DNA of 32,477 nucleotides, from assembly GCA_002791575.1 (NCBI GenBank), contig PFXI01000040.1:35114-67590 (forward strand), written 5' to 3'. The notes beneath the pieces are model-generated. The model did no database searches and had not been told where the DNA came from. It saw only the letters and a program-made list of their open reading frames with translations. Position numbers and translations under genes: made by a program. Of this stretch, positions 737 to 20,318 are shown piece after piece. The first letter of the stretch is position 1. Each line of letters starts with the position of its first letter. Source of the DNA: Zetaproteobacteria bacterium CG_4_9_14_3_um_filter_54_145 (GTDB lineage Bacteria > Pseudomonadota > Zetaproteobacteria > Mariprofundales > Mariprofundaceae).

Positions 737-2245
737 ATGCCGCTGATTAAAGGCAATGTTATTGCCAATATGGTTGGAAATGGGTGGGCGGCAATGGTGT
801 CAATTGCCTTTCTTCCTTTATATATCCACTTTATTGGTATTGAATCGTATGCCTTGGTTGGTTTTTATGTTGCCATGCAAGCAATACTGTCTCGACTTGA
901 TATGGGATTAACAGCTGTGATGTCGAGAGAGCTGGCACGCCTTTCGGCAACTGAAAATGGTGAACAAGCCATGAGGGATTTGGTTCGAACACTTGAATTG
1001 GTATGCTGTTTGCTGGCCGCAGTCATCGTGATAATAATGGCGAGCATTGCTCCCTGGGTATCGCAACACTGGTTTAATGGCAGTACCCTTTCTGCTGCAG
1101 TTATTCATCAATCAGTTGTGCTCATGGGCATAGTCATAGCGCTAAGGCTGCTTTATGGTTTTTATTGCAGTGGTTTGCTCGGATTGCAGCGGCAAGTGCT
1201 GCTCAATAAGGCCAAGGTGCTTTTGGAGACCATAGTTGCACTTGGTAGTGTGCTGGTGCTGTGGAGGATATCTCCGACTATTGAGGCATTTTTCATGTGG
1301 CAAGCGATTGCAGGGGGCTTTGCTGCATTGACCATGGCATGGCTATTGTGGAAGGCATTGCCAAAATCCGGGAAGCCTATGCTCCGTTTGGATATTCTAA
1401 GAACGGTTGCCCGTTTTGCCGGCGGCGTAAGCCTGGCAACCTTAACTGCTTCGGTTTTCATTCAGGTGGATAAACTGATGCTGAGTGCAATGCTGCCAAT
1501 TGAGGTGTTTGGTTTCTACGCTTTGGCATCGGCAGTTTCTATGGGAAGTATGTTTCTTGTCAGTGCTTCTATATTTTCAGCCATGTACCCGGCATTCACC
1601 CAGCTTATTGCAAGTCAGAATGAAGTCTCTTTGACTCAATTGTATCATAAGGGAAGTCAGGCAATGACGGTGCTTTTGGTTCCAGCTGCATTGGTAATAT
1701 CATTCTTTTCCAAAGATATTCTGGAAGTGTGGACTCAGAATAGCGCGCTTGCCACTCAGGTTGCGCCAATTCTCAGTGTGATAGTGGTTGCAGCAGCGTT
1801 CAGTGGAATAAGGTATTTGGCCTATGCGCTTCAACTGTCCCATGGTTGGACCAGGTTGACAGTGTTTTCTAATTTGATTGCAATAGTGTTTCTTTTTGCA
1901 GCACTTCAAATAGTTGTGCCCTTAAGTGGGGTGCAGGGGGCGGCACTGGCATTTTTGATCGTGAATGCACTTTATACATTTTTTTATGTATATATCATGC
2001 ACCGTAAAGTTCTGAAGATGGAGTTTTATAAATGGCTTTCTGCTGATTTTATTCTTCCGTCAGTTGCCGCTTTTTCAATTGTCCTGTGCTTCTGGTTGTT
2101 AAAACCGATGGATATGAACGATCTTAGCAAGTTAATGTGGATATTATTAGCGGAGGGACTTTCCACGTTGGCAGCGGTAATGTTTGCTCCGGTAGTCAGG
2201 CGGGAGATGACCTCGCTGTATAATGCTATTTTTGCCAACCGCTAG
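737..2245 (+). CDS. Wzx-like polysaccharide flippase (MOP superfamily)
   Basis: A 502-residue integral membrane protein with about 12-14 hydrophobic segments along its whole length, the size and layout of Wzx/RfbX-type flippases. These move undecaprenyl-pyrophosphate-linked oligosaccharides across the inner membrane. The N-terminal helix pair (residues 5-60) and the repeated polar/hydrophobic pattern fit the MATE-like MOP fold. The ATG start follows the sulfotransferase by 24 bp, and a GT2 gene starts 32 bp downstream. Sequence alone does not reveal the substrate. The fusion protein at 7601-10501 carries a second flippase-like domain of the same superfamily, so the locus has two candidate exporters. 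Confidence 0.85.
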   Translation: MPLIKGNVIANMVGNGWAAMVSIAFLPLYIHFIGIESYALVGFYVAMQAILSRLDMGLTAVMSRELARLSATENGEQAMRDLVRTLELVCCLLAAVIVIIMASIAPWVSQHWFNGSTLSAAVIHQSVVLMGIVIALRLLYGFYCSGLLGLQRQVLLNKAKVLLETIVALGSVLVLWRISPTIEAFFMWQAIAGGFAALTMAWLLWKALPKSGKPMLRLDILRTVARFAGGVSLATLTASVFIQVDKLMLSAMLPIEVFGFYALASAVSMGSMFLVSASIFSAMYPAFTQLIASQNEVSLTQLYHKGSQAMTVLLVPAALVISFFSKDILEVWTQNSALATQVAPILSVIVVAAAFSGIRYLAYALQLSHGWTRLTVFSNLIAIVFLFAALQIVVPLSGVQGAALAFLIVNALYTFFYVYIMHRKVLKMEFYKWLSADFILPSVAAFSIVLCFWLLKPMDMNDLSKLMWILLAEGLSTLAAVMFAPVVRREMTSLYNAIFANR

Positions 2246-4543: not shown

Positions 4544-5760
4544 AAATCCTCTGTGTCTTCGGGCAGTATAACTACGGTGATCCCGAGCGCGGCCTTGGAT
4601 ATGAATATTCTAATTTTATTCCTGCGCTGAAGAACCTCGGGCATGAGGTGCTATTTTTTGAAAGCCTGAATAAATCGAAATACGTTGATTATGCGGATAT
4701 GAATAGGCAATTGCTGCAGATAGTTGAGGCGGAAAAGCCGGATCTGATCTTCTGTGTGCTGATGACCTACGAAATCTGGCTGGAGACCCTGCAACTTATT
4801 CGCGAAGGCAGTAATGCAGCATTAATTCACTGGGCCACTGATGATTCATGGAAGTATGAACAGGCTTCACGTTTTTTGGCGCCGATGTTCGATGTCCATG
4901 CAACGACCTACCCCTCAGCTATGGCAAAGGCTAAAAAGGATGGGCTGGATAATGTTGTGCTAAGTCAGTGGGCTGCGGATTCATCCCGTATGGCACCGCC
5001 TCTTAATGCGGGACAGTGTCGTTACAAGGTCAGCTTTGTTGGTTCAACGTATGGTAATCGTCAGCAGTGGGTCGAGGATTTAAAGCAGCGCGGTATCCAG
5101 GTGGATGCATTCGGATACGGCTGGCCGAATGGACCGGTGGCAGCAGAAGAGATAGCCGTGATTATGCGGGAGTCTCAAGTCAGCCTTAATTTTGGTGATT
5201 CAGGTGTGGTGATTGAGGGTGGTAAAGCGGTGCGCAGCCGGCAGATCAAGGCGCGTATATTTGAAGTGACAGGAGCCGGCGGGCTGCTGGCGACCGAGAG
5301 TGCTGCCCATCTGGATGCTTTTTTTGTCCCGGGTGAGGAGATCGTCGTATTCAGTGATATCGATGATCTGGTAGAAAAAATTGAATACTTGCTTGCCCAT
5401 CCGGACAGGCGTGATGCCATAGCGCAGGCAGGGTATGCAAGAACCGAGGCCGAACACAGTTACGAGTCCCGTTTTGAACCGCTGATTAAACAGGCAATGG
5501 CACGCAGGGAAATGCGCCCGGCTGCAAAACAAGGTATTGATTTTGATCGCTTTGGCATGATCGAAGCATCACATCGCCCGCATCTGCTGTTGCACCTGCT
5601 CAAGCTGATGCTATTGCTCCCTTGTTTGTTGGTATGGGGGAAGCAGCGCGGGCCACGTGCTGCCAGGCGTTTTCTGTTCGAGTTTAGCTGGCGATACTTG
5701 GGGAAGAAAACCTATTCTGCTACGAATTGGGCGGGGCGAGTTTTTTACAAAGAGAGTTAA
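4540..5760 (+). CDS. CgeB-like glycosyltransferase (GT-B fold)
   Basis: A 406-residue protein similar in layout to the CgeB/'glycosyltransferase family protein' group. The N-terminal Rossmann domain starts ILCVFGQYNYGDP and includes ALIHWATDDSW (residues about 91-101), a characteristic segment of this family. The C-terminal nucleotide-binding half carries FEVTGAGGLLATE, then a FFVPGEEIVVFSD segment and a helix of the type that ends many GT4-like proteins. A basic, hydrophobic tail of about 50 residues follows. It starts with GTG inside the stop of the methyltransferase gene. Members in surface-polysaccharide loci are presumed sugar transferases; donor and linkage are unknown. Confidence 0.78.
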   Translation: MKILCVFGQYNYGDPERGLGYEYSNFIPALKNLGHEVLFFESLNKSKYVDYADMNRQLLQIVEAEKPDLIFCVLMTYEIWLETLQLIREGSNAALIHWATDDSWKYEQASRFLAPMFDVHATTYPSAMAKAKKDGLDNVVLSQWAADSSRMAPPLNAGQCRYKVSFVGSTYGNRQQWVEDLKQRGIQVDAFGYGWPNGPVAAEEIAVIMRESQVSLNFGDSGVVIEGGKAVRSRQIKARIFEVTGAGGLLATESAAHLDAFFVPGEEIVVFSDIDDLVEKIEYLLAHPDRRDAIAQAGYARTEAEHSYESRFEPLIKQAMARREMRPAAKQGIDFDRFGMIEASHRPHLLLHLLKLMLLLPCLLVWGKQRGPRAARRFLFEFSWRYLGKKTYSATNWAGRVFYKES

Positions 5761-5800
5761 ATGCATAGTCTGCTAGCCTTGCAACTAGACGGGAGTTGAT

Positions 5801-6712
5801 ATGAATGTTCTGGTATTGGGCGGAAGCGGGTTTATCGGTTCGCATGTGGTGGATCACCTGCTTGCAGCCGGTCACAGGGTGCGTGTGTTTGATCGCGCGC
5901 CGGAGCGTTACCGCTCGCCGTTAAAGCAAGTTGAATACAGACTTGGTAGTTTTGACGATACATTTCAGGTGGCCGAGGCACTGCAAGGTATGGATGCTGT
6001 ATGTCATCTGATCAGTACCACGGTACCCGGAACATCCAATCTCGATCCTGTCGCTGATGTGCAAAGCAACCTGATCAATACACTGTCACTACTTGAGCAG
6101 ATGAGAAAAAAAAGTTTACGCAGAATACTCTATCTCTCATCCGGCGGTGCAGTTTACGGGAATCCTGAACTCTCTCCTGTCAGCGAAAGCCATTCACTGA
6201 ATCCGATCAGTTCATACGGCGTTGTGAAGGTCGCTATCGAAAATTACTTGAAAATGTATCAGCAGCTGTATGGGTTTGAACCTATTATCTTGCGCCCATC
6301 CAATCCTTATGGCTCCAGGCAGGGACATGCCGGCGTGCAGGGCTTGATCGGAACGTTGCTTGCCAGAGCGCTGGCAGGCGATGCGTTGGAAATCTGGGGC
6401 GATGGCTCTGTTGTTCGTGATTACATGCATGTCACCGATCTTGCCCGCTTATCTGTTGCGGCACTGGAGAGTGGGCGTTGCGGCGTGTTTAATGCCGGCA
6501 GCGGTCAGGGCCACTCAATTCATGATATTATTGATCAGATCCGTAATGTCACCGATGAACAATTGCAGGTAAGCTACAGTGAAGGTCGCTCCTTTGATGT
6601 GAAAGAGGTCGTGCTCGATATCAGTCATGCCAAAGCAGTGTTCGGGTGGCAGCCCGAGATATCGCTGTCCGACGGCATTCACGAACAACTGAAATGGTTG
6701 AAGTCGTTGTGA
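5801..6712 (+). CDS. NAD-dependent sugar epimerase/dehydratase (extended SDR)
   Basis: A 303-residue extended short-chain dehydrogenase of the GalE/WbpP type, converting one NDP-sugar into another in the cytoplasm. It has the NAD-binding glycine motif GGSGFIG at residues 7-13, the catalytic serine region YLSSGGAVYG (111-120), the YxxxK pair Y139/K143, and RPSNPYG followed by a substrate-binding region. The start has GGGAG about 6 bases upstream. It is probably a UDP-hexose(NAc) 4-epimerase, but 4-reductase or dehydratase activity cannot be excluded from motifs alone. It lies 40 bp after the CgeB-like gene and 40 bp before another GT2 gene. Confidence 0.83.
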   Translation: MNVLVLGGSGFIGSHVVDHLLAAGHRVRVFDRAPERYRSPLKQVEYRLGSFDDTFQVAEALQGMDAVCHLISTTVPGTSNLDPVADVQSNLINTLSLLEQMRKKSLRRILYLSSGGAVYGNPELSPVSESHSLNPISSYGVVKVAIENYLKMYQQLYGFEPIILRPSNPYGSRQGHAGVQGLIGTLLARALAGDALEIWGDGSVVRDYMHVTDLARLSVAALESGRCGVFNAGSGQGHSIHDIIDQIRNVTDEQLQVSYSEGRSFDVKEVVLDISHAKAVFGWQPEISLSDGIHEQLKWLKSL

Positions 6713-6752: not shown

Positions 6753-7595
6753 ATGCAGCCACGCGTAACGATAGCGCTGCCGGTCTATAACGGCGGGGCT
6801 ACGCTGAAACTCGCAGTCCACTCCGTTTTGCAGCAGAGCTTCACCGACTGGGAGTTGATCATCCTCGATGATGCATCCACAGATAACAGTCTGGAGGTGA
6901 TGCGTTCCTTTGATGATCCGCGCATCCGTTTGGTGGAAGGGGAGCACAATCTGGGTCTTTCTGCACGCCTGAATATGGCTGTGGATATGGCTTGCGGTGA
7001 TTACTTTGCCCGCATGGACCAGGATGATATCAGTCTTCCACTTCGATTGGGGAAACAGCTCGGTTACCTTCAGAAACATGGCGAAGTCGACCTTCTGGCA
7101 ACCAATTATGCAGCATTCAATGATAAACATGAGTGGCGGGGCAAGTTGTCTGTGCGACTGGGGCATGAAGATATTTGTCGCAGCCCGTGGAGCGGCTTCT
7201 ATATGCCACATCCTACCTGGATGGGTAAACTGACATGGTTTAAAAGACACCGTTACCACAGCTATGCTGATGGCGCTGAAGATCAGAACCTGTTGCTGCG
7301 TAGCTATGCCGAAAGCTGTTTTGCCTGTCTTGATGAAGTGTTGTTGGCTTACAGGCAGAATGAGCGTCCACTCAAACACAAGCTGAGAGCCCGGTTCAGG
7401 TATGCTCAATCTGCATTTGCTTCTTGTCGGGCGTGTGATGTCTGTCACATGGCGATTAAAGTGTTAATTGTACAGTTGGCCAAGGGCTTTGTGGACATGG
7501 TAAGCTCATGGTCCCCTTGGGAGCAAAGGGGACTGGTGCCACTTACAGATGAAGAAACTCGCTATCTTAATAGCGTTATAGAGGACTTAAAATAA
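6753..7595 (+). CDS. GT2-family glycosyltransferase
   Basis: A 280-residue GT-A fold glycosyltransferase. It starts VTIALPVYNGG (residues 5-15), continues LIILDDASTDNS (35-46), and has the DxD-type motif MDQDD with D89, D91 and D92. The segment GAEDQNLLLR further on matches the usual ED catalytic-base motif, and a cysteine-rich stretch (SCRACDVCHM) lies near the C-terminus. The gene ends 5 bp before the large fusion gene, so the two are probably cotranslated. It would add one sugar to the lipid-linked oligosaccharide; its specificity is unknown. Confidence 0.88.
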   Translation: MQPRVTIALPVYNGGATLKLAVHSVLQQSFTDWELIILDDASTDNSLEVMRSFDDPRIRLVEGEHNLGLSARLNMAVDMACGDYFARMDQDDISLPLRLGKQLGYLQKHGEVDLLATNYAAFNDKHEWRGKLSVRLGHEDICRSPWSGFYMPHPTWMGKLTWFKRHRYHSYADGAEDQNLLLRSYAESCFACLDEVLLAYRQNERPLKHKLRARFRYAQSAFASCRACDVCHMAIKVLIVQLAKGFVDMVSSWSPWEQRGLVPLTDEETRYLNSVIEDLK

Positions 7596-7600
7596 ACCTT

Positions 7601-10501
7601 ATGGAAACGAAGCTCGCCAGGCACTCTGTCTCGGCAGTATTGCCCTTGTGGGTGGCGTTGTTCTGCTTTGCTACCGTGATGGGGCTGCTCTTTCAGAAAT
7701 TAATTCTCCCCGCTATCCCTTCCATGCATGCAGGCCTTGGCTTGATGAACAATGATGCAATCTACTTTCATCATGTTGCGGAATTGATGGCTGCCAATAT
7801 CCAGGCGAACGGATGGAGCTGGGATGCTATCTGGCCGCATGCACAGGGGGCGACGGGAAACGTGGTTGTACTTGCCATAGTGTATGCACTGTTTGGCGCC
7901 GACCCCTCACTGATTTTGCCCGTTAATGCTGCGCTGCATGCCACTTCAGGCATTCTACTCCTGCTGATCGTGCAGCTGCTTTGCCCGGGCAGGATAGGCC
8001 AGGCTGCCGGTATTGTCGCGGCCACGCTGTTTGTGATCCTGCCTTCGGGTCTGAACTGGTACGCACAGGTGCATAAGGATGGATATGCGATCGCAGGCAC
8101 GCTGCTAGTATTGTATGCGTGGCTGCGTTTTTTCTATCACCATACAGGTGCGCGCTCTGTTGCAATCTTTATTTTGGCCAGCCTTGCAGGTGTTGCGCTA
8201 ATTCTGTTTGTGCGCCCCTACAATACCGTTTTTCTGACGCTGGCAACGACCCTGTGGCTGGTTGCCGTTGCCACACTTGCCCTGCTTCGCTCCGAGTTTC
8301 GGAACAGGAAGAGGTATTTATTTGTTTCGATTGGTGTCTGGTTGTTGTTTGCAATACTTGCAGCCACATATGGCCATAGCGCGGCGCAGGACTCTAATGC
8401 TTACAGTCATTGGAGCGGAGCATCCCAATCTGAGGCTGAGGTTTGTACAAAATGGCACTGGCAATCCAGCTCCCTGCTACCGGCTTCGCTGGAAAAATAT
8501 GCTGAAACTGCTGCCAGAACGCGCGCAGGGCTTATATGTGCGCATTTTGATGCCTCATCCAACATTGACCGGGAACGCTTGCCACGCAGTGTCAGCGAGA
8601 TTGTCGCCTATATGCCGCGCGTATTTGCCGTTTCTCTGCTTGCCCCATTTCCCGATATGTGGTTTCCAATGAGTGCCACGCGCCTGGTGGGCGCGCTGGA
8701 GATCTTGATCTGGTATCTGCTTATTCCCGGTTTTTTTCTGGCAATCAGATATTATGGCTCACAAGGGATGGCCCTCTGCCTGCTCTTTGCGCTCTGTTAT
8801 CTTGCCATTTATGGTTTTACCATAGGCAATGTGGGAACCCTGCACAGAGTTCGTTATCCATTTCTGTTGCTGTTCATGGCCATTGGGTTGCTTGGCTGGG
8901 CCGGCCTGATTGCAAAAAGTCGTTTGTATCAAGAACGAATAAAAGGCTGGTTAACCACTGATCGAGGTAACATTATTTCGATTGAAGAGGTGTTGGCAAC
9001 CGTGGCTGACAGCGATAAGGCTGAATCGAATAGCTCTCTGAGAAAGAAAGCTATTGGTGGAGGCATACTTGTTTCAGCTATTACAATGCTCTCATTTCTA
9101 GGATTCTTTTTTCGCGATGTCCTGATGGCGCATCAATTCGGCATCAGTGAGCAGATGGATGCTTTTTTTGTAGCCATGCTGATCCCGATGTTTATGGTCA
9201 ATGTGTTTGGCCAGTCTTTCGGCTCGGCAAGTGTCTCCCTGTATATGCGTGAACGTCAGCAGGGGGAGAGTCACGGGGCGGATGTGGTTCGCCGCCTCTC
9301 TTATATGATAACATTGTCGCTGCTGGCACTGAGTCTATTGCTAGCACTACTTGCGCCTGTAGTGCTACCCTTGCTGGGCTGGAACTTTTCTGCCGATACG
9401 ATTGAACTGTCACGCTATCTTTTATATGGTGCACTCCCCCTGTTGTTGTTCAGCGGCATGGTTGTGCTGGGTAATGCCATACTTAGTGCTCGCATGCACT
9501 TTTCGGTGCCGGCTTGGTCGCAGGCGGTTGTGCCGATATTCGCCATAGCAGCACTGCTGGTTGCAGGAGAGAAACTGGGCATTGCTGCAGTGCTGATCGG
9601 CATGGTACTTGGCCAGCTTGTAAACCTTGTTCTGGTGCAGATCTATCTCAAACGTGACCGCTTGAGCGTCATGCCGAAGCGGAACCGGGAGATCACCCTG
9701 CCCGAAGGTAGTAAGAAACTGTTTCTCTCGCTCGTGATGGCGGCGATATTTTTGCAGATCTCATTGCTGATAGATAATGGCATGGCTTCCAGCCTGGAGG
9801 TTGGCAGCGTCGCCTCGCTCGGTCTGGGCTATAAAGTAGTTTTTTTTGTCACCGGTGTCATTGGTACCGGCATTTCGATGGTGTTGCTACCATATTTTGT
9901 GAGTTTTATCGTAAAACGGGATGTCATTTCTGCAAACAGAGAGCTGTCGGTGCTGATGTCACTGGCAACAATGCTCGGTATGATCACCAGTGTGACTGTA
10001 TATTATGCTGCCCCCCCGATGATACGGTTGCTGTTTCTTGGCGGAGAGGTTGACGTTCAGGATATCAATACGGTGATTCGGGTCATACATATGGGCATAT
10101 TGCAGGTGCCATTTTTTGCCTGTCAGCTGATCCTGATTAAGTATGCGACCGCTTCGCATGATAACAGGTCAATTCTTGTCTCTGCGGTTGTCGGTACGGT
10201 TGTAAACATAGCCCTTAATTATATTCTGATGCAACGCATGGGCGTAAGCGGTATTGCTGCTGCAACGACCCTCTCTATGTTCTGTAGTGCAGCAGTGTTG
10301 TTATGGATGGTTCATCGTCAGGGCAATATGTCATGGCTGGATGTGTTGCTCTCCGGTCTGGTATGGATTCTGTTTTTAACCATGATGTTGTGTATCCATT
10401 TTCAGAGTTACTCCGGCGTGGTTGTCTCTGTCATTGCTATGTTACTGGCGAGCTTTATATTGAACTTTGAAAAGGCATCGATAAATAGCAAGCCTGCTTA
10501 G
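7601..10501 (+). CDS. Fusion of a GT-C-like membrane glycosyltransferase with a MurJ/MviN-like flippase
   Basis: A 966-residue polytopic membrane protein with two recognisable halves. Residues 1 to about 455 have about 9-10 hydrophobic segments. A first-loop motif, NNDAIYFHHVAELM, matches the acidic D-x3-Y-h pattern of ArnT/PMT/RgtA-type GT-C enzymes, and HKDGYAIAGTLL follows later. A polar linker (about 456-483) leads to a MurJ/MviN-type half, with FFFRD at residues 502-506 and DAFFVAMLIP from D520. The single frame is open throughout, with no internal stop. GT-C enzymes use polyprenyl-phosphate sugars on the periplasmic side, and MurJ-type proteins flip lipid-linked sugars. I infer a coupled flip-and-transfer role. 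Several residues essential in E. coli MurJ are replaced. Confidence 0.8.
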   Translation: METKLARHSVSAVLPLWVALFCFATVMGLLFQKLILPAIPSMHAGLGLMNNDAIYFHHVAELMAANIQANGWSWDAIWPHAQGATGNVVVLAIVYALFGADPSLILPVNAALHATSGILLLLIVQLLCPGRIGQAAGIVAATLFVILPSGLNWYAQVHKDGYAIAGTLLVLYAWLRFFYHHTGARSVAIFILASLAGVALILFVRPYNTVFLTLATTLWLVAVATLALLRSEFRNRKRYLFVSIGVWLLFAILAATYGHSAAQDSNAYSHWSGASQSEAEVCTKWHWQSSSLLPASLEKYAETAARTRAGLICAHFDASSNIDRERLPRSVSEIVAYMPRVFAVSLLAPFPDMWFPMSATRLVGALEILIWYLLIPGFFLAIRYYGSQGMALCLLFALCYLAIYGFTIGNVGTLHRVRYPFLLLFMAIGLLGWAGLIAKSRLYQERIKGWLTTDRGNIISIEEVLATVADSDKAESNSSLRKKAIGGGILVSAITMLSFLGFFFRDVLMAHQFGISEQMDAFFVAMLIPMFMVNVFGQSFGSASVSLYMRERQQGESHGADVVRRLSYMITLSLLALSLLLALLAPVVLPLLGWNFSADTIELSRYLLYGALPLLLFSGMVVLGNAILSARMHFSVPAWSQAVVPIFAIAALLVAGEKLGIAAVLIGMVLGQLVNLVLVQIYLKRDRLSVMPKRNREITLPEGSKKLFLSLVMAAIFLQISLLIDNGMASSLEVGSVASLGLGYKVVFFVTGVIGTGISMVLLPYFVSFIVKRDVISANRELSVLMSLATMLGMITSVTVYYAAPPMIRLLFLGGEVDVQDINTVIRVIHMGILQVPFFACQLILIKYATASHDNRSILVSAVVGTVVNIALNYILMQRMGVSGIAAATTLSMFCSAAVLLWMVHRQGNMSWLDVLLSGLVWILFLTMMLCIHFQSYSGVVVSVIAMLLASFILNFEKASINSKPA

Positions 10502-10566: not shown

Positions 10567-11700
10567 GTGATAAAACGAATCTGTATTGTGGTTGCAAGCG
10601 AAATGACCGTAAAAGCGTTCCTGAAGCAGCAGATCATTGCGTTAAGTGAACGTTATGATGTGACGCTTGTTGTGAATACCCAACAAGCAGATTTTGCCGG
10701 GCAGAATGATTTGCAGGTCAAAGTTATCCCCCTTGCCATAGAGCGGGCTATTAATCCGGTGGCTGATTTGCGGGCGCTGTTTCAATTGATTCGCTTGTTC
10801 CGCACGCACAGGTTTGATCTTGTGCATTCGGTGACGCCGAAGGCTGGGTTGCTTGCCATGTTGGCAGCAAAGGTGGTTGGGGTACCCTTCCGTATTCACA
10901 CGTTTACAGGTCAGGTTTGGGCAACAAGGCAGGGTTTTCCCCGGCTGTTATTGAAGATGATGGATCGCTTGCTAGCCGTGTCGGCGACACACTTGCTGAC
11001 GGACAGCTTTACTCAGCGACAGTTCCTGATCGATCAGGGCATCTCTGGCAGCGAGAAATTGATAGTGCTGGCCGATGGCTCTATCAGTGGAGTGGATACC
11101 GACAGGTTCATGCCGGATAGCAGTGTCCGTTCTGACATGCGCAGGCAACTGGACATCTGCGAAGGTGATGTGCTTCTGCTGTTTCTGGGACGGTTGAATC
11201 GCGATAAAGGCGTTCTTGATCTGGCCGCGGCATTTGCCACGGTTGCTGTGAATCTGCCCCGATTGCATCTGCTTCTCGTCGGCCCGGATGAAGGCGGATT
11301 GCAGATGATTGTGAAAACAACCTGTGCTGAATACCTCCAGCGCGTTCATTTTATCGATTATACCGACAAACCCGAATCCTGTTTTGCGGCAGCCGATATA
11401 TTCTGTTTGCCAAGCTACAGGGAAGGCTTTGGTAGCGTTATTATTGAGGCGGCAGCATGCGGCATACCTGCGATCGGTTCGAGAATATACGGGATATCTG
11501 ATGCGATCAGGGAAGGGGAGACAGGCCTGCTGTTCGAAGCGGGCAATACCGACCAATTGGCCGCTACTATTGAAGTGATGACCACCGATTCGGCGTTGCG
11601 CAGTCAGCTGGGAAAAACCGCATTTGAACGCGCGCGTGATGATTTTCCGACGAAACGACTGGTTCAGGCATGGCTGGATTATTATGATGGACTGCAATGA
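10567..11700 (+). CDS. GT4-family glycosyltransferase, PglA-like
   Basis: A 377-residue GT-B enzyme. The N-terminal domain has the motif HSVTPKAGLLAMLAA followed by RIHTFTGQVWATR, typical of the PglA/WbpX-like group that extends undecaprenyl-pyrophosphate-linked acetamido sugars. The C-terminal domain has FLGRLNRDKGVLDL, then PSYREGFGSVIIEAAACG, the E-x7-E nucleotide-sugar motif of GT4. The start is a GTG with only a weak ribosome-binding site. The stop overlaps the ATG of the PglC-like gene (ATGA). In Campylobacter PglA adds GalNAc to UndPP-diNAcBac. The context here supports a second-sugar role, but the exact sugar is not known. Confidence 0.85.
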   Translation: MIKRICIVVASEMTVKAFLKQQIIALSERYDVTLVVNTQQADFAGQNDLQVKVIPLAIERAINPVADLRALFQLIRLFRTHRFDLVHSVTPKAGLLAMLAAKVVGVPFRIHTFTGQVWATRQGFPRLLLKMMDRLLAVSATHLLTDSFTQRQFLIDQGISGSEKLIVLADGSISGVDTDRFMPDSSVRSDMRRQLDICEGDVLLLFLGRLNRDKGVLDLAAAFATVAVNLPRLHLLLVGPDEGGLQMIVKTTCAEYLQRVHFIDYTDKPESCFAAADIFCLPSYREGFGSVIIEAAACGIPAIGSRIYGISDAIREGETGLLFEAGNTDQLAATIEVMTTDSALRSQLGKTAFERARDDFPTKRLVQAWLDYYDGLQ

Positions 11701-12290
11701 AACGTTTGTTTGATCTTGTGGCCGCAATCAGTGGCCTTTGTCTGTTGTGGCCGATGCTGCTGCTGTTGGTACTACTGGTGAGAATCAAGCTGGGCTCTCC
11801 GGTGCTGTTCAGGCAACAGAGGCCGGGGTTGCATGGACGGCCGTTTTATATTTACAAGTTTCGCAGCATGACCGATGCAAAGGATGCTGCCGGTCAGCTA
11901 CTGCCGGATGCTGACCGGTTAACCGCATTCGGTGTTTTTTTACGCAGGTTCAGTCTGGATGAGTTACCGCAGCTGATTAATGTGATCAAGGGCGATATAA
12001 GCCTTGTTGGACCAAGAGCGCTATTAATGGAGTATCTGCCGCTCTATGACACCGATCAGGCACGGCGCCATGATGTGCGGCCGGGAATCACCGGTTGGGC
12101 CCAGGTGAATGGCCGTAATGCTATCAGCTGGGAAGAAAAATTTGCCTATGATATATGGTATGTGGAGCACCACTCTTTTCTGCTTGATCTGAAAATACTC
12201 TGGATGACGTTGTTGAAAGTGGTGCGTTCAGAGGGAGTGGCGCAGTCCGGCCATGCAACGATGGAAAAATTCCGGGGGAATTCCAGATGA
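11697..12290 (+). CDS. Initiating phosphoglycosyltransferase, PglC-like
   Basis: A 197-residue small monotopic phosphoglycosyltransferase. It transfers a sugar-1-phosphate from a UDP-sugar to undecaprenyl phosphate at the inner membrane, starting the glycan. It has one N-terminal re-entrant membrane helix (residues about 4-30), the KFRSM motif (54-58), and the catalytic Asp-Glu dyad D88-E89 in SLDELPQL, followed by GDISLVGPRAL and RPGITGWAQVNGRN. The length matches PglC rather than the long WbaP form. Overlaps of four bases with both neighbours indicate tight coupling. The adjacent acetyltransferase and aminotransferase favour UDP-di-N-acetylbacillosamine as donor. Confidence 0.9.
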   Translation: MKRLFDLVAAISGLCLLWPMLLLLVLLVRIKLGSPVLFRQQRPGLHGRPFYIYKFRSMTDAKDAAGQLLPDADRLTAFGVFLRRFSLDELPQLINVIKGDISLVGPRALLMEYLPLYDTDQARRHDVRPGITGWAQVNGRNAISWEEKFAYDIWYVEHHSFLLDLKILWMTLLKVVRSEGVAQSGHATMEKFRGNSR

Positions 12291-12922
12291 ATCAGTTGCT
12301 CATTCTTGGGGCTGGCGGACATGGCAAGGTGATGGCTGAAGCAGCAGAAGCGGCAGGTGCGTGGCAACATATCGCGCTGCTGGATGACCGACATGCCTTG
12401 CTTGACGGTACGCTGCGCTGGCCGGTGCTGGCGAGCATCGAAGAGGCTGGGCGTTTTGTCTCTGAATATTCACATGCCATTGTGGCTGTGGGTGATAGCA
12501 GACGACGAATGGCATGGCTTAATCAGCTGAGTAGTTTCGGTTTTCTGATTCCCACGCTGATCCATCCGGCTGCATGGGTTAGCCCCTCGGCATCACTGGG
12601 TGAAGGCAGTGTCGTGATGGCCAATGCTACGCTACAGGCGGATATCCGCCTGGGGCGCGGATGCATTGTGAATACAGGTGCAAGTATCGACCATGATTGC
12701 AGCATAGGTGACGGTGTGCATATCTGTCCGGGAGCAAGCCTTGGTGGTGAAGTAATGATCGGCCATGGTAGCTGGCTCGGTATCGGCTGCGCGGTGATTC
12801 AAGGTGTGCGTATCGGCGGGAAAGTGACCGTCGGGGCGGGGGCCGCAGTGATTAGTGACATTGGAGAAGGTCTGACCGTTGTCGGTGTGCCGGCAAGAGA
12901 GATCTCCCGAGGGATGAAATGA
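12287..12922 (+). CDS. PglD/NeuD-family sugar acetyltransferase
   Basis: A 211-residue enzyme expected to N-acetylate the 4-amino group of a UDP-4-amino-4,6-dideoxy sugar using acetyl-CoA. An N-terminal Rossmann-like domain (LILGAGGHGKV at residues 5-15) binds the UDP-sugar. The C-terminal left-handed beta-helix carries the catalytic histidine H136 in GASIDHDCSI and a second conserved histidine, H145. The end has the VGVPAREI motif common to the family. It overlaps the upstream PglC-like and downstream aminotransferase genes by four bases each (ATGA). NeuD-type sialic-acid acetyltransferases are close relatives, but the neighbours make PglD the better call. Confidence 0.87.
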   Translation: MNQLLILGAGGHGKVMAEAAEAAGAWQHIALLDDRHALLDGTLRWPVLASIEEAGRFVSEYSHAIVAVGDSRRRMAWLNQLSSFGFLIPTLIHPAAWVSPSASLGEGSVVMANATLQADIRLGRGCIVNTGASIDHDCSIGDGVHICPGASLGGEVMIGHGSWLGIGCAVIQGVRIGGKVTVGAGAAVISDIGEGLTVVGVPAREISRGMK

Positions 12923-14088
12923 CTATGGGGTTTCCTGTGTGGCCTGAATATGCCGAGGATGAGATTGCAGCGGTTGAAGCAGTTTTACGGTCGGGTAAAG
13001 TAAATTACTGGAGCGGTGATCAGGGCAGTTGCTTTGAGCGGGAGTTTGCAAGCTATGTTGGCACTGCATATGCCATTGCTCTGGCCAACGGCACGCTGGC
13101 GCTGGAAGCTGCGCTCTATGCGCTGGCTATCGGAGAGGGAGATGAGGTGATTGTGCCGGCTCGAACCTTTATCGCTACAGCCAGTAGCGTGGTGATGTGC
13201 GGAGCCACACCGGTGGTGGCTGATATTGATCCGCGCAGCGGTAATCTGACACTGGAAACTATTGATGCCGCCCGCACCGAAAAAACAAAGGCGATCATTG
13301 TTGTACATCTTGGCGGCTGGCCATGTGAGATGCCTGCGGTGATGGCTTATGCTGAACTGCACGGCCTGAAGGTCATCGAAGATTGCGCACAGGCGCATGG
13401 TGCTGAAATCAATGGGCGAAAAGTAGGTTCATTCGGTCATGCCTCAGCCTTTTCATTCTGTCAGGATAAAATCATCTCCACCGGTGGTGAAGGTGGCATG
13501 CTGGTGACAAACGATCCGGATATATGGCATAAAGTGTGGTCATTGAAGGATCATGGGCGTGATTATGATGCGGTGTTTCATTGCGAACATGAACCAGGCC
13601 ATCGCTGGCTATGTACCACTTTCGGAACCAACTGGCGACTGACTGAAATGCAATCAGCCATTGGCCGTATCCAGTTACAGAAATTACCCGGGTGGCTGGC
13701 CATCAGACGATCTCATGCCACGATGTTGATTGATGGCTTGGCAGGGGTTGCGGGGTTGAATGTGCATTCTCCGGATAAAGGCGTGCTGCATGCCTGGTAC
13801 CGGTTTTATGCATGTATCGATGCAGGCCTGCTACGGGAGGGCTGGAATCAGGATCGTATTATTGAAGCGATTGTTGCTGAAGGTGTGCCCTGTTTTCATG
13901 GTAGTTGTTGCGAGATTTATCGGGAGGCAGCTTTTGACGACTTGCCGGACGATCGTTACCCGCTGCCCAATGCACATCTTGCTGCCCGTGCCAGCCTGGC
14001 GCTGTTGCTGCACCCGACGTTGAAGGAAAAAGATATTGAGAGAACAATTGCAGTAGTGAGGAGTGTGTTTGAACGTGCAGTGGCCTGA
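12919..14088 (+). CDS. DegT/DnrJ/EryC1-type aminotransferase, PglE-like
   Basis: A 389-residue PLP enzyme that would convert a UDP-4-keto-6-deoxy sugar to the 4-amino sugar with glutamate as donor. The PLP-binding lysine is K184 in FCQDKIISTGGEGG, ANGTLALEAAL (56-66) contacts the cofactor, and EDCAQAHGA (154-162) has the aspartate that pairs with the pyridine nitrogen. The start ATG overlaps the acetyltransferase stop. The dehydratase it would need is encoded at 15832-17694 in the same direction. Related enzymes can make perosamine or other 4-amino sugars, so bacillosamine remains an inference from the gene set. Confidence 0.9.
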   Translation: MTMGFPVWPEYAEDEIAAVEAVLRSGKVNYWSGDQGSCFEREFASYVGTAYAIALANGTLALEAALYALAIGEGDEVIVPARTFIATASSVVMCGATPVVADIDPRSGNLTLETIDAARTEKTKAIIVVHLGGWPCEMPAVMAYAELHGLKVIEDCAQAHGAEINGRKVGSFGHASAFSFCQDKIISTGGEGGMLVTNDPDIWHKVWSLKDHGRDYDAVFHCEHEPGHRWLCTTFGTNWRLTEMQSAIGRIQLQKLPGWLAIRRSHATMLIDGLAGVAGLNVHSPDKGVLHAWYRFYACIDAGLLREGWNQDRIIEAIVAEGVPCFHGSCCEIYREAAFDDLPDDRYPLPNAHLAARASLALLLHPTLKEKDIERTIAVVRSVFERAVA

Positions 14089-15343
14089 TGTTTTTCCAGC
14101 ATGGCAGGGGACTAAATCCTTAGCACTGATTCTGTTGTGTATGGCCATGCTCTGCTTTCCATTTTCAGTTGCAGCAACCAATGTCGCCCTCGGCTTGATG
14201 CTGGCGACAGGAGTGCTAACCGGGCTCTGGTGGCAAGGTGTGGCTGCATTATGGCATGGTTACAGGGTATTGAGCCTGGCGATAGCAGCTTATCTTGGCC
14301 TGGTTATCATTGGACTGTTGTGGAGTCTCGACCCGGCCTGGGGTATGAAGATTCTTGGCCGGCACTGGTTCTGGATGATTCTTCCGGTCATCGTGATGTT
14401 ACTATCGGATGTAAAGAACAGGTCAATATTATTATTTTTCGTCTCGCTGGGCCTGTCCCTTAATCTGATCTACTGCGTACTGCAGATATTTGATGTTGTA
14501 TCAATCACATTGGTAGGTGGATCATCCTCAAGCAATCCTACCGGACATATCGGCCATACCAGCTTCGGATTTATCTATGGGATTTGGGCCGCATGGCTGC
14601 TGCATACGGGGTTGCTCTGCCGTAATAAACTGAGCTGGTTGCTATGGGGGCTGGCTTCATGGGCAGTAGTGATGGTGTTTCTGGCTCAGGGGAAAAGCGG
14701 ATATATTGTTACGCTGGTGGTCGTATTGTTTGTCGCGATCAGGTGGTTACATGAAACTGGAGGCAGGAGGATGTTTGTAATATTGGCATCTGTGCTGCTT
14801 CTACTGTTCATGGCATTGGCGCTGGGGCCAGGAAAGGAACGTGTAGTGGGCACTTGGCAGGCACTTACAGGTACCGTACAGAAGCAGTTGAATACGGATG
14901 AGATTGTAGCTGTTTCTTCCGCCACGGCGCGTATGGAGTGGTGGAAAATGAGCTACCATATCTGGCTTGAACAGCCGCTTATGGGCGTGGGAACCGGTGG
15001 CTTCCCGAAAGCGGTGGTTGATTGGCAGGCCACCCATATCGACGAAGGTGAATTTGCAGTGGCACTGGTACATCCGCATAATCAATACCTGTTGGTGATG
15101 GTGCGTTGGGGGGTGATTGGCTTAGTCTTATTGCTGGCGCTGCTCTACTTCTGGATTCGTGCGGGGGCAGCCCGTTCGTGGCAGCATTCAGTAGCGATGC
15201 CTCTGGTTACCCTGACAGGGGTCGCCCTACTCGTGCATGGCTTGTCATCATCGAGTCTGGAAGAGCATTTCTCAACAATTTTTGCACTTGTACTGGCAGG
15301 GACAGGGCTCTCCGAAAACATCTTCTCTGATGACGCTGCCTAG
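14063..15343 (+). CDS. O-antigen ligase / O-oligosaccharyltransferase (Wzy_C family)
   Basis: A membrane protein of about 420 residues with some 10-11 hydrophobic segments and a large periplasmic loop. The loop includes ARMEWWKMSYHIW, GVGTGGF and the diagnostic PHNQYL motif of the Wzy_C family. Such proteins transfer an undecaprenyl-linked glycan to lipid A-core (WaaL) or to protein (PglL). I cannot separate these two roles from sequence alone. It overlaps the aminotransferase gene. The exact start is uncertain: GTG 14063, TTG 14069 and GTG 14075 are all in frame, and GAGGAG at 14058-14063 favours one of the latter two. Confidence 0.82.
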   Translation: MCLNVQWPDVFPAWQGTKSLALILLCMAMLCFPFSVAATNVALGLMLATGVLTGLWWQGVAALWHGYRVLSLAIAAYLGLVIIGLLWSLDPAWGMKILGRHWFWMILPVIVMLLSDVKNRSILLFFVSLGLSLNLIYCVLQIFDVVSITLVGGSSSSNPTGHIGHTSFGFIYGIWAAWLLHTGLLCRNKLSWLLWGLASWAVVMVFLAQGKSGYIVTLVVVLFVAIRWLHETGGRRMFVILASVLLLLFMALALGPGKERVVGTWQALTGTVQKQLNTDEIVAVSSATARMEWWKMSYHIWLEQPLMGVGTGGFPKAVVDWQATHIDEGEFAVALVHPHNQYLLVMVRWGVIGLVLLLALLYFWIRAGAARSWQHSVAMPLVTLTGVALLVHGLSSSSLEEHFSTIFALVLAGTGLSENIFSDDAA

Positions 15344-15831: not shown

Positions 15832-17694
15832 ATGAGTAAGCTTCTTTCCCTGAGAAATCGCTGGCTGGTGATTGCACACGATCTGCTGTGGATACCACTG
15901 GCCATCTGGGCATCCTTCTGGTTGCGTTTCAACCTGAGTGAGGTGCCGCCAATCTACCTGCAGCCGCTGCACCTGCTGATTACGATTTCTATACCATTGC
16001 AACTACTCGTTTTCTGGTATTTCGGCCTCTATCGGGGCATCTGGCGCTTTGCTTCTATTCCCGATCTGCTGCGCATCCTTCAGGCTGTGCTTGCCGGTGT
16101 GCTGCTCAGTTTTATTCTCATGTTTGTGCTGCAGCGACTGGAAGGGATCCCACGTTCCGTGCTGGTACTCTATCCGGTGATTCTGGTGATGGGGCTGGCT
16201 ACGCCCCGGCTGTTTTATCGCTGGCTGAAGGATCGACATTTGAACCTGAAAGTTTCTGAGCGCAAGCGCGCACTGCTGATCGGTGCCGGTCAGGCCGGCG
16301 AACTGCTGGTGCGCGATCTGCTGAAGTCCGGACCATATGTGGTGGCCGGTTTCTTGGATGATGCCGAGCGCAGGCAGGGGCAGGAGATTCATGGCGTACG
16401 TGTGATCGGTAAGCTTTCCGACCTGGAAAAGGTGGTCAGTCGCCATGGTGTAGAGGTGGTGCTGCTGGCCATTCCATCGGCATCGCATCAGACCATTCAG
16501 TCTGTTGTGCGGCGTTGCCAGCAGATGCATGTGCAGTGCCGGATTTTGCCATCGGTTGCCGAACTGGCCGATGGCCGGGTGGAGGTGTCGCGCCTGAGAT
16601 CCGTGCAGATTGAAGACCTGCTTGGACGTGATACGATCGAGCTGGATTATGCAGGTATTCATCAGCTGATTGCAGGGCAGACGGTGCTGGTTACCGGAGC
16701 CGGCGGATCAATCGGTTCCGAGTTGTGCCGGCAGATTTTACATCAGAAGCCTGCGGCGCTGCTGCTGCTCGATCATGGCGAATTCAATCTCTACACGATT
16801 GATCTTGAGCTGAAACCGGCAGGGGAACAGTCGGGCGTCGCGGTCTCCGCCATTCTTGGCGATATTCGCGATGAAGTGCGCATGCGCTGGCTTATCGAGC
16901 ATTTCCGGCCAGCCATTATATTTAATGCCGCGGCCTATAAACATGTACCTCTGGTCGAAGAGAATCCGGCCGAAGGTATCAAAACCAACGTGCTGGGTAC
17001 CTGTCAGCTGGCTGATCTGGCGGTCGAGTTCGGCGTAAAGAAATTTGTACAGGTCTCCACCGATAAGGCGGTGAATCCGACCAATGTTATGGGGGCCTCC
17101 AAGCGTACGGCGGAAATTTATTGCCAGAACCTGAATCGCAGAGCAGAGACAACCGCCTTTATCACGACCCGTTTTGGTAATGTGCTGGGCTCTGCAGGTT
17201 CTGTGGTGCCTCTGTTTCGCAAGCAGATAGAGGCTGGTGGGCCGGTCACTGTGACGCATCCGGATATTACCCGTTATTTCATGACCATACCGGAAGCGGT
17301 CAGCCTGATTCTGCAGGCGGGCAGTATGGGCCATGGCGGCGAGATATTCGTACTTGATATGGGCAAGCCGGTGAAGATTGTGGAGCTGGCAGAACAGATG
17401 ATCCGCCTGACAGGGCTAGAGCCGGGTCACGATATCGAAATCCGGTTTACGGGTTTGCGGCCGGGTGAAAAGTTGTATGAGGAGTTGTTCCATGACTCTG
17501 AAAAGCTTGCGGCTACAGGACATGCGAAGATCATGCTATCCGGCAGTCGTGAGGTGGATTGGCAGCTTATGCAGCAGGGCTTGCAGAGCCTGCGTGAAGC
17601 CTGTGCAACGCGTGATATCAACCTGCTGCATCGTAACCTTAAACAGCTGGTGCCGGAATTTTCATCCGGGTTGCTCAAGGATGGAGCGAGCTGA
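15832..17694 (+). CDS. Membrane UDP-sugar 4,6-dehydratase, PglF/WbpM/FlaA1-type
   Basis: A 620-residue enzyme of the long membrane-bound family converting UDP-GlcNAc to its 4-keto-6-deoxy derivative, the first step to bacillosamine. It has four N-terminal membrane helices (residues about 10-125), then a Rossmann-like segment (LLIGAGQAGE, about 149-158). The SDR domain has TGAGGSIGSE (about 286-295) and STDKAVNPTNVMGASKR (about 408-424). In that last motif Met replaces the usual catalytic Tyr, as is normal for WbpM/PglF enzymes. The start at 15832 is right behind the comEA-like terminator with only a weak ribosome-binding site, so its promoter is unclear. It supplies the substrate for the aminotransferase at 12919. 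Confidence 0.92.
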   Translation: MSKLLSLRNRWLVIAHDLLWIPLAIWASFWLRFNLSEVPPIYLQPLHLLITISIPLQLLVFWYFGLYRGIWRFASIPDLLRILQAVLAGVLLSFILMFVLQRLEGIPRSVLVLYPVILVMGLATPRLFYRWLKDRHLNLKVSERKRALLIGAGQAGELLVRDLLKSGPYVVAGFLDDAERRQGQEIHGVRVIGKLSDLEKVVSRHGVEVVLLAIPSASHQTIQSVVRRCQQMHVQCRILPSVAELADGRVEVSRLRSVQIEDLLGRDTIELDYAGIHQLIAGQTVLVTGAGGSIGSELCRQILHQKPAALLLLDHGEFNLYTIDLELKPAGEQSGVAVSAILGDIRDEVRMRWLIEHFRPAIIFNAAAYKHVPLVEENPAEGIKTNVLGTCQLADLAVEFGVKKFVQVSTDKAVNPTNVMGASKRTAEIYCQNLNRRAETTAFITTRFGNVLGSAGSVVPLFRKQIEAGGPVTVTHPDITRYFMTIPEAVSLILQAGSMGHGGEIFVLDMGKPVKIVELAEQMIRLTGLEPGHDIEIRFTGLRPGEKLYEELFHDSEKLAATGHAKIMLSGSREVDWQLMQQGLQSLREACATRDINLLHRNLKQLVPEFSSGLLKDGAS

Positions 17695-19826: not shown

Positions 19827-19870
19827 ACCCGTCCTGGGTTCACACCCTTCGGGCAGCCTGAAGGCTGTCC
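19815..19870 (+). repeat. Composite two-hairpin repeat, copy 1
   Basis: The order is a GATATGATG lead, a 6-5-6 hairpin (GAACCC/GGGTTC, 19825-19841), the spacer ACACCCTTC (19842-19850), and an 8-4-8 hairpin (GGGCAGCC, TGAA, GGCTGTCC; 19851-19870). It begins within the last codons of priA and includes its stop. Confidence 0.7.
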
Positions 19871-19889
19871 AATCCGGCTGTCCTGCCGG

Positions 19890-19946
19890 ATTGTGATGTG
19901 AGTCCATGTATGGGGCTACACCCGTAGGGCGCGCTAAAGCGCGTCC
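19890..19946 (+). repeat. Composite two-hairpin repeat, copy 2
   Basis: The order is an ATTGTGATG lead, a weaker 6-5-6 hairpin (AGTCCA/GGGGCT with one mismatch, 19901-19917), the spacer ACACCCGTA, and an 8-4-8 hairpin (GGGCGCGC, TAAA, GCGCGTCC; 19927-19946). The second hairpin has a G-T pair at the same position as copy 1, although the inner stem bases differ on both sides. Confidence 0.7.
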
Positions 19947-19947
19947 A

Positions 19948-19971
19948 CCATTGTGCAGGAGAGCACAATGG
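19948..19971. repeat. Perfect 9-bp hairpin with AGGAGA loop
   Basis: CCATTGTGC pairs with GCACAATGG around a 6-nt loop. It is directly behind repeat copy 2 and has no T-run, so it is not a standard terminator. Confidence 0.65.
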
Positions 19972-19995
19972 CACGCCCAAGCGTCCTGCAAGGGT

Positions 19996-20015
19996 GGCGC
20001 ACATGGATGTGCGCC
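19996..20015. repeat. Perfect 9-bp palindrome with 2-nt centre
   Basis: GGCGCACAT and ATGTGCGCC flank GG. It is 20 nt overall, the same length as the second hairpin of the composite repeats, and may be a diverged solitary copy. Confidence 0.6.
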
Positions 20016-20036
20016 ATGAATGTTCTATCCTGAAAA

Positions 20037-20092
20037 ATTGTGATGCAGGCACTTCGTGTGCCTACACCCGCAGGGCGCACCTATGGTGGGTC
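20037..20092 (+). repeat. Composite two-hairpin repeat, copy 3
   Basis: The order is an ATTGTGATG lead, a 6-5-6 hairpin (AGGCAC/GTGCCT, 20047-20063), the spacer ACACCCGCA, and a degenerate second hairpin (20073-20092) in which an inner CACC/GGTG stem and outer GGC/GTC pairs remain. Confidence 0.65.
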
Positions 20093-20165
20093 AATCTGAA
20101 GTCGCTCTATCGCGTAGCGGGATAGGTCGCTACTTGCTCCTGCCGGATTGTGATGTAAGTATTGT

Positions 20166-20302
20166 TTTCACCGCAGAGTAAGGCAAATTGTTTGTCTTTA
20201 ACGCGTAATGAAACAGTGAGCATATCGTCATGAAGCCAGCTTTCCCACGGATAACTATAGGAATGCTTTTCCGCTGTCTCCTTTTAGTCCCCTGCGGTGA
20301 AA
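20166..20302. repeat. 137-bp segment bounded by 11-bp inverted repeats
   Basis: TTTCACCGCAG (20166-20176) and CTGCGGTGAAA (20292-20302) are perfect inverted repeats around an AT-rich interior with no ORF of note. This is the size and form of a small non-autonomous (MITE-like) element. No target-site duplication is evident, so mobility is only a possibility. The ychF stop lies 17 bp beyond the right end. Confidence 0.45.
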
Positions 20303-20318
20303 GCTTTTGACTGTGTGT

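Follow-up and report, generated by a model that had tools for sequence, protein, structure and literature searches.

In the N-glycan pathway of Campylobacter, the pgl genes (encoding PglF, E, D, C, A, K, and B) provide for a bacillosamine-type lipid-diphosphate sugar, a family 4 glycosyltransferase (GT4), an ABC-type flippase, and a GT-C enzyme. In archaea, Agl23 is a putative flippase of the MOP family that works with a separate GT-C partner, and AglR is a similar case. Agl23 has been described as serving lipid-linked sugars for glycosylation on the outer face of the membrane, with a dolichol monophosphate sugar as its proposed cargo (PMC11182771). In Escherichia coli MurJ (also called MviN), of the MVF family in the MOP superfamily, R18, R24, and R270 are described as essential arginines of the cavity (PMC9973255), and in Thermosipho MurJ the triad R24-D25-R255 (R255 corresponding to E. 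coli R270) is reported to contact pyrophosphate (PMC11706664). An equivalent logic, in which a positive pair in transmembrane helices (TM) 1 and 8 meets the diphosphate and the head group is read in the cavity, has been proposed for the teichoic acid flippase TacF, together with a call for more experiments (PMC13385700). Here we describe a membrane protein in which a MurJ-like flippase is joined to a GT-C half in a single chain, encoded in a 32,477-nucleotide stretch (the window; positions 35,114 to 67,590 of contig PFXI01000040.1, assembly GCA_002791575.1) of Zetaproteobacteria bacterium CG_4_9_14_3_um_filter_54_145. The flippase half resembles MurJ in its 14-helix fold, its match to PF03023, and its retention of the R24, D25, and D39 sites; unlike MurJ, it has R18, K46, R52, R53, E57, and D269 changed and Lys at R270, is joined to a GT-C half, lies in a glycan cluster, and scores below the NCBIfam MurJ cut-off. 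TacF belongs to another MOP family (PST) and is likened to the fusion by its proposed logic and not by residue alignment, whereas Agl23 and its partner are archaeal and encoded by separate genes. The locus shares its gene kinds with the pgl system and differs from it in that the flippase is MurJ-like and joined to the GT-C half, the sugar being deduced here from gene content.

Architecture of the fused protein

Hydropathy analysis of the whole fusion gave 24 segments, as expected for 10 plus 14 helices. At an E value of 0.001, its only Pfam matches were to MurJ and MatE, with no match to the Polysacc_synt family PF01943 (Wzx, PST family). The MurJ-like half matched PF03023 with 181.9 bits (gathering score, 27.4) and the NCBIfam equivalog TIGR01695 with 185.1 bits, below the cut-off of 235.55, and one unnamed PHROGs family was matched by the C-terminal half only. 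A model of the full-length protein (predicted local distance difference test [pLDDT], 75.7; predicted template modeling score [pTM], 0.57) had E. coli MurJ 9ukv as its best Foldseek match (E value, 3e-13; TMt, 0.76), and in it the flippase half adopts the 14-helix MOP fold, with helices spanning residues 470 to 963; at this pTM the relative placement of the GT-C and MurJ halves is not trustworthy.

The initial annotation had named the N-terminal half a GT-C domain, and the predicted fold bears this out. In a model of residues 1 to 455 (AlphaFold2 with an 11-row alignment; pLDDT, 76.5; pTM, 0.81), this half has the GT-C membrane fold, which we take to be of class GT-C_A. The VIA Z scores of the model were 19.3 with AglB, 19.2 with ArnT, 18.9 with STT3, 17.7 with PglB, and 17.4 with Pmt4, and the best 50 structural matches were, judged from their titles, GT-C enzymes or glycosylphosphatidylinositol-transamidase chains. 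Foldseek was weak on this half (best E value, 0.0045; probability, 1.00). Pfam gave no PMT or PMT_2 match for the window's N-terminal half at an E value of 0.1, DUF6541 alone appearing, below its cut-off, and PMT_2 matched 1 of the 11 fusion N-terminal halves (E value, 0.00015). A profile of this half gave just two matches among solved chains when compared by sequence (E values, 0.62 and 1.2), and a search of plasmids and viral contigs gave none.

GT-C glycosyltransferases carry a conserved Asp in the first periplasmic loop, and oligosaccharyltransferases of the STT3/PglB type have, in addition, a C-terminal periplasmic domain with a WWDYG motif. On our reading of the models as 10 plus 14 helices, the polar motifs of the GT-C half would face the periplasm (D52, K159-D160, R205, R340, R416, and R418 by the ten-helix assignment) and the linker would be cytoplasmic, in agreement with a cytoplasmic N terminus for the MurJ half. 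Although the predicted fold is that of ArnT, AglB, and PglB, identity to them is 10 to 14% and the fusion has HKDG in the second outer loop; neither the soluble C-terminal periplasmic domain nor the WWDYG motif was seen in it, a short linker leading into TM1 of the MurJ half instead.

Residue changes in the MurJ-like half and the separate MurJ

Residues were mapped in a 51-row MAFFT alignment that included E. coli K-12 MurJ (L057), and HMMER alignments to solved MurJ chains, among them E. coli 6cc4 and Thermosipho 5t77, were gapless across TM1. The residues named in the initial annotation (F499, R505, D520, V533, and the motif GYKVVFF from 743) lie where it placed them in the open reading frame (ORF) at 7601-10501, and both kinds of alignment agree with its reading that R18 and R52 are replaced by Phe499 and Val533 and that R24 and D39 are kept; no conserved Arg appeared at the R18, R52, or R270 site. 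Further changes from E. coli MurJ to the window protein in the MAFFT alignment are K46 to L527, R53 to N534, E57 to Q538, D269 to Y744, and E273 to F748, and one residue is missing after the E57 site. The accompanying claim that essential arginines had been lost holds with a shift of emphasis: of the arginines named, those truly lost are R18 and R52, because the Lys that replaces R270 keeps the charge and is invariant.

The fusion set numbered 12, comprising the window protein and those of L007 to L017 (L007 is missing the greater part of its GT-C half; L004, L005, and L006 are the proteins of L008, L009, and L010, and each was counted once). Site 18 is Phe in nine fusions, Asn in two, and Tyr in one, and never Arg; site 52 is Val and site 270 is Lys in all 12, and R24, D25, and D39 are retained in every one. 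Given this recurrence, a chance, purely local loss of the arginines was rejected. The comparators were 52 stand-alone MurJ proteins, namely E. coli MurJ and 51 loci classed as MurJ by score. A first control of 32 (the 30 best-scoring MurJ loci from 120 proteobacterial genomes, the MurJ of the window's own genome, and E. coli MurJ) is biased toward good scorers, and the 20 added comparators were chosen by hand; fusion genomes supplied 7 of them, and the other 13 were lower-scoring rows. R18, R24, and R270 were each present in 52 of 52 comparators, but all three never occurred together in any of the 12 fusions. R52, D39, and E57 were each present in 50 comparators, with Gln in place of R52 in two and Glu in place of D39 in two; D269 was present in 49, and D25 in 47, the other 5 having Glu. 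Among 21 sites charged in at least nine-tenths of the 32 first comparators, 4 keep their charge in at least 9 of 11 fusions: R24, D25, D39, and R270 (as Lys). Window residues E781, R827, and K847 represent charges fixed or nearly so in the fusions and not in the comparators, and may be new cargo contacts.

The loss of R52 is weak evidence, because L079 and L080, presumed true MurJ proteins of the L016 and L015 genomes, also lack it, and because Burkholderia cenocepacia MurJ tolerates removal of charge at this site, having been reported functional without it (PMC4790310). L079 and L080 likewise lack R53, E57, and D269 and retain R18, R24, and R270; R52 or D269 alone was therefore rejected as a marker of a non-MurJ protein. 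Nor is arginine loss special to the fusion, because non-fused PF03023 proteins also vary: eight matches outside the fusion (98 to 309 bits, and of mixed nature) differ at these sites, with the stand-alone L048 having Arg at 18, Lys at 24, Ile at 52, and Lys at 270 and L050, which has no evident glycan cluster around it, having Phe at 18 and Glu at 52. L048 (8956-10347) is a MurJ-like protein from the window's own genus, lies in a polysaccharide-type cluster, and adjoins the fusion C-terminal halves in the tree described below.

The window's genome encodes a second, canonical MurJ at C119:5695-7008, scoring 409.8 bits against 185 for the fusion, and it retains R18, R24, D39, K46, R52, R53, E57, D269, and R270, with Gln at E273; the idea that the fusion is this genome's only MurJ was accordingly rejected. 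A separate MurJ above 300 bits was found in 7 of the 10 other fusion genomes. None above 300 bits was found in G155, G156, and G160 (completeness, 86% for G155 and 69% for G156), which may reflect assembly gaps, because all 10 are metagenome-assembled genomes (MAGs). The MurJ half of the fusion is thus probably not the lipid II flippase of the cell. The separate MurJ, the residue pattern, and the score below the NCBIfam cut-off together support the initial suggestion of a lipid-linked substrate different from lipid II.

Proposed cargo and alternative explanations

The pyrophosphate triad survives as R-D-K in all 12 fusions, and R18 and the TM2 charges are lost. The economical reading is that the grip on a polyprenyl diphosphate has been kept and the site for the lipid II head group rebuilt, and a PglC-type enzyme encoded next door makes a short polyprenyl-diphosphate glycan the expected cargo. 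The further step in the initial annotation, that the cargo might be a polyprenyl-monophosphate sugar, is not supported, because R-D-K is kept in 12 of 12 fusions and the neighboring genes are of the polyprenyl-diphosphate-sugar kind. It seems slightly on the probable side that the fusion carries such a cargo and serves, as a single-chain unit for flipping and transfer, a pathway that makes surface or protein glycans. In this pathway, the neighboring dehydratase, aminotransferase, and acetyltransferase would make a bacillosamine-like UDP (uridine diphosphate)-sugar, the PglC-type enzyme would transfer the sugar to polyprenyl phosphate to yield a polyprenyl-diphosphate sugar, and the neighboring GT4 (and the family 2 glycosyltransferase, GT2) would extend it. 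The MurJ-like half would then flip the short glycan by MurJ-type alternating access, with R505-D506-K745 holding the diphosphate and the lipid II contacts of R18 and its neighbors gone, and the GT-C half, its predicted active site in the periplasm, would act on the flipped product, using it either as a donor (to protein, lipid, or a growing chain) or as an acceptor. Direct hand-over to the fused GT-C half, which would make the protein a channelled "flip-and-ligate" machine replacing a separate Wzx plus Wzy or oligosaccharyltransferase, is a tentative extension that we consider rather doubtful.

Several observations weigh against a diphosphate-linked cargo flipped and used by one chain. The window, L011, L013, and L014 clusters each encode a Wzx-type flippase as well, and the L014 genome has one PF02397 and one PF00953 enzyme; two flippases for its one visible non-murein diphosphate glycan are one too many, a surplus that would make sense if there were another class of lipid-linked cargo. 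ArnT, a monophosphate-donor enzyme, equals the oligosaccharyltransferases as a match to the predicted GT-C fold (Z, 19.2 versus 19.3), and because these rows tie, the fold cannot tell diphosphate from monophosphate donors. The window's genome holds a GtrB-like synthase (27% over query positions 2 to 301 of 306; E value, 4e-36), and GtrA was not found in it, a soft negative in that the same search missed its E. coli control, although the annotation of E. coli K-12 includes a bactoprenol-linked glucose translocase. L067 and L068, two more distant homologues of the GT-C half that are not fused and were found among 148 genomes around L015, each lie directly before a GT4 gene, mostly the arrangement of the fusion too, so that fusion is not needed for the role of this half; the L067 stretch also holds a Polysacc_synt_3-type flippase, and the end of a MurJ-family gene lies at the edge of the L068 stretch examined. 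Gram-positive MurJ retains few of the charges discussed above and still works (PMC4790310), and the cargo classes themselves are not sharply separable, because a putative archaeal hexose-P-dolichol flippase is reported to suppress the loss of a diphosphate flippase in yeast, which Thermosipho MurJ did not (PMC11182771). Some of these points fit an explanation in which a polyprenyl-monophosphate sugar is the cargo of the MurJ half and serves the GT-C half as donor for decorating a glycan flipped by the separate Wzx. Many of the GT-C enzymes matched by the predicted fold (ArnT, Pmt, ALG, and DPY19) use lipid-monophosphate donors, and the tie of ArnT for best predicted fold match, the Wzx genes of four clusters, and the GtrB-like synthase with GtrA missed by the insensitive search all count for this explanation, as does the naming of Agl23 as the putative archaeal hexose-P-dolichol flippase (PMC11182771). 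Against it stand the diphosphate contacts retained as R-D-K and the cluster itself, in which no polyprenyl-P-sugar synthase was recognized, the adjacent GT2 scoring 16 bits to ArnC against 113.6 to EpsE; the GtrB-like gene lies elsewhere, on another contig among genes that by eye resemble lipopolysaccharide (LPS) core genes. Given the co-occurrence of Wzx, the GtrB-like synthase, and the blurred cargo classes, we hold the diphosphate model with only modest confidence and regard the monophosphate model as unlikely but deserving real weight.

More doubtful still is a sharper form of the diphosphate model, in which the GT-C half either polymerizes the diphosphate glycan for the cluster, standing in for Wzy, or acts on it as an oligosaccharyltransferase. 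In the stretches examined, Wzx and the fusion are the sole polytopic ORFs of the L011, L013, and L014 clusters (L011 has a third at 19484-21271, on the far side of a lipid A acyltransferase gene, and the L013 sequence stops 4.5 kb after the fusion), and the predicted fold has AglB, STT3, and PglB among its best matches, but the window and L008 also carry a Wzy_C-type gene, L015 and L016 encode further polytopic proteins, the N-terminal half lacks the periplasmic domain of STT3 and PglB, and WaaL ranked 49th in Foldseek with a probability of 0.12, a weak row that excludes nothing. That the fusion is an ordinary MurJ duplicate which still flips lipid II, its arginine losses being neutral as in Gram-positive MurJ, we consider very improbable: its distribution of R18, R24, and R270 sets it apart from every comparator, a separate MurJ is present, and the gene lies in a glycan cluster. 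This explanation draws on a Streptococcus pyogenes homologue that serves E. coli even though only three of the eight charged residues have counterparts in similar positions (PMC4790310, PMC4990322). The statement that residue loss proves a new cargo was rejected as too strong on the same ground, Streptococcus MurJ working with three of the eight charges (PMC4790310).

Gene neighborhood and distribution of the fusion

The coordinates of the fusion, its residues, and its neighbors are collected in Table 1. Upstream of the fusion there are also genes for an epimerase, a further glycosyltransferase, and a methyltransferase. The GT4 homologue lies upstream of the fusion in L015, and the L016 contig is short upstream. 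ORF calls gave homologues of the acetyltransferase at 8 of the 10 other loci and of the aminotransferase at 7; all such neighbor counts are subject to short flanks at some loci and to overlapping ORFs, behind which a gene may be missed. No gene of the genome other than the PglC-type one matched PF02397, and two genes elsewhere in it matched PF00953. The PseC and PseB models were matched below their cut-offs, and a bacillosamine-like sugar would be in line with the gene kinds present.

Table 1. Positions of the fused gene, its notable residues, and neighboring genes in the window
Feature	Coordinates	Strand	Basis
Fused membrane protein, 966 aa, GT-C half plus MurJ-like half	7601..10501	+	Single ORF
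GT-C half, residues 1-452	7601..8956	+	Model of residues 1-455; 10 TM helices by reading of model
Asp52, first periplasmic loop, candidate catalytic Asp	7754..7756	+	Asp in 10/10 covering fusions
Lys159-Asp160, HKDG motif, predicted periplasmic end of TM4	8075..8080	+	Invariant, 11/11
Arg205 (RPY motif), predicted periplasmic	8213..8215	+	Invariant, 11/11
Arg416-x-Arg418, predicted periplasmic end of last GT-C-half TM	8846..8854	+	Invariant, 11/11
Linker, predicted cytoplasmic	8957..9046	+	pLDDT <50 at 441-473; topology count
MurJ-like half, residues 483-966, 14 model helices	9047..10501	+	PF03023; Foldseek match to 9ukv
Phe499 at E. coli R18 site	9095..9097	+	Alignment
Arg505-Asp506, E. coli R24-D25, retained	9113..9118	+	Alignment
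Asp520, E. coli D39, retained	9158..9160	+	Alignment
Val533-Asn534 at E. coli R52-R53 sites	9197..9202	+	Alignment
Tyr744-Lys745 at E. coli D269-R270 sites; Lys invariant	9830..9835	+	Alignment
GT2 glycosyltransferase	6753..7595	+	PF00535; closest NCBIfam EpsE, 113.6 bits, below cut-off
GT4 glycosyltransferase, adjoins fusion	10567..11700	+	PF00534; homologue in 9/10 other loci
PglC-type phosphoglycosyl transferase	11697..12290	+	PF02397, 215.7 bits; homologue in 10/10 other loci
NeuD/PglB/VioB (PglD-like) sugar acetyltransferase	12287..12922	+	TIGR03570, 223 bits (cut-off, 160.8)
PglE/PseC-like sugar aminotransferase (DegT)	12919..14088	+	PF01041; PseC model below cut-off
Wzy_C / O-antigen ligase-like protein	14063..15343	+	PF04932, 65.8 bits
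PglF/CapD-like nucleotide-sugar dehydratase	15832..17694	+	PF02719, 404.9 bits
Separate Wzx-type MOP flippase	737..2245	+	PF01943, 44.8 bits

The GT-C half was found in 5 of 100 relatives' genomes (including the window's own and one partial match), and the same 5 were found among 398 proteobacterial genomes. Ten loci were found when genome contigs were scanned, all in MAGs as judged from record titles (three zetaproteobacterial/Mariprofundaceae, three gamma-, three delta-, and one betaproteobacterial), with both halves in one ORF at every locus, L017 being cut at its 5' end by the end of the contig. Identity of the fusions to the window protein ranges from 36 to 80%. In a 31-row tree, the 11 fusion C-terminal halves formed one group (support, 100/99) beside the stand-alone L048; this tree includes eight paralogs, leaves out 20 canonical rows for size, and is to be read with a warning about long branches. 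L012 (9863-12871) shares 63% with the window in the GT-C half and 34% in the flippase half, against 57 to 59% and 70% for L011 and L013, and from these identities it looks as if L012 had exchanged its flippase half within the fused group while remaining fused. No description of a GT-C-MurJ fusion was found among the papers listed in literature searches, as covered by titles and the starts of abstracts, with subscription journals mostly outside coverage. The parts are of known kinds, and the new element is their combination, conserved down to about 36% identity.

The fusion links two steps that are normally read from separate proteins, and because flippase and GT-C half are covalently joined, the partner could be used to deduce what a MurJ-like protein carries. 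The fusions also provide a natural variant set that bears on the specificity of MOP flippases, in which residues that meet the diphosphate (R24, D25, and R270, with charge kept) can be set against possible readers of lipid II (R18 and its neighbors, which are lost). For annotation, they warn against relying on the label "MurJ" where a PF03023 match lies in a glycan cluster.

Three smaller observations concern individual sequences. The unfused copy at L068:8683-10073 extends over two overlapping frames, which may reflect a disrupted gene or a misassembly. At L072, a GtrB-like polyprenyl-P-sugar synthase gene lies near a gene for a hydrophobic 454-residue protein (8112-9083 and 5060-6424). Just before the first base of the window, a short run of unknown bases falls inside a sulfotransferase-like ORF (L073, about 18604).

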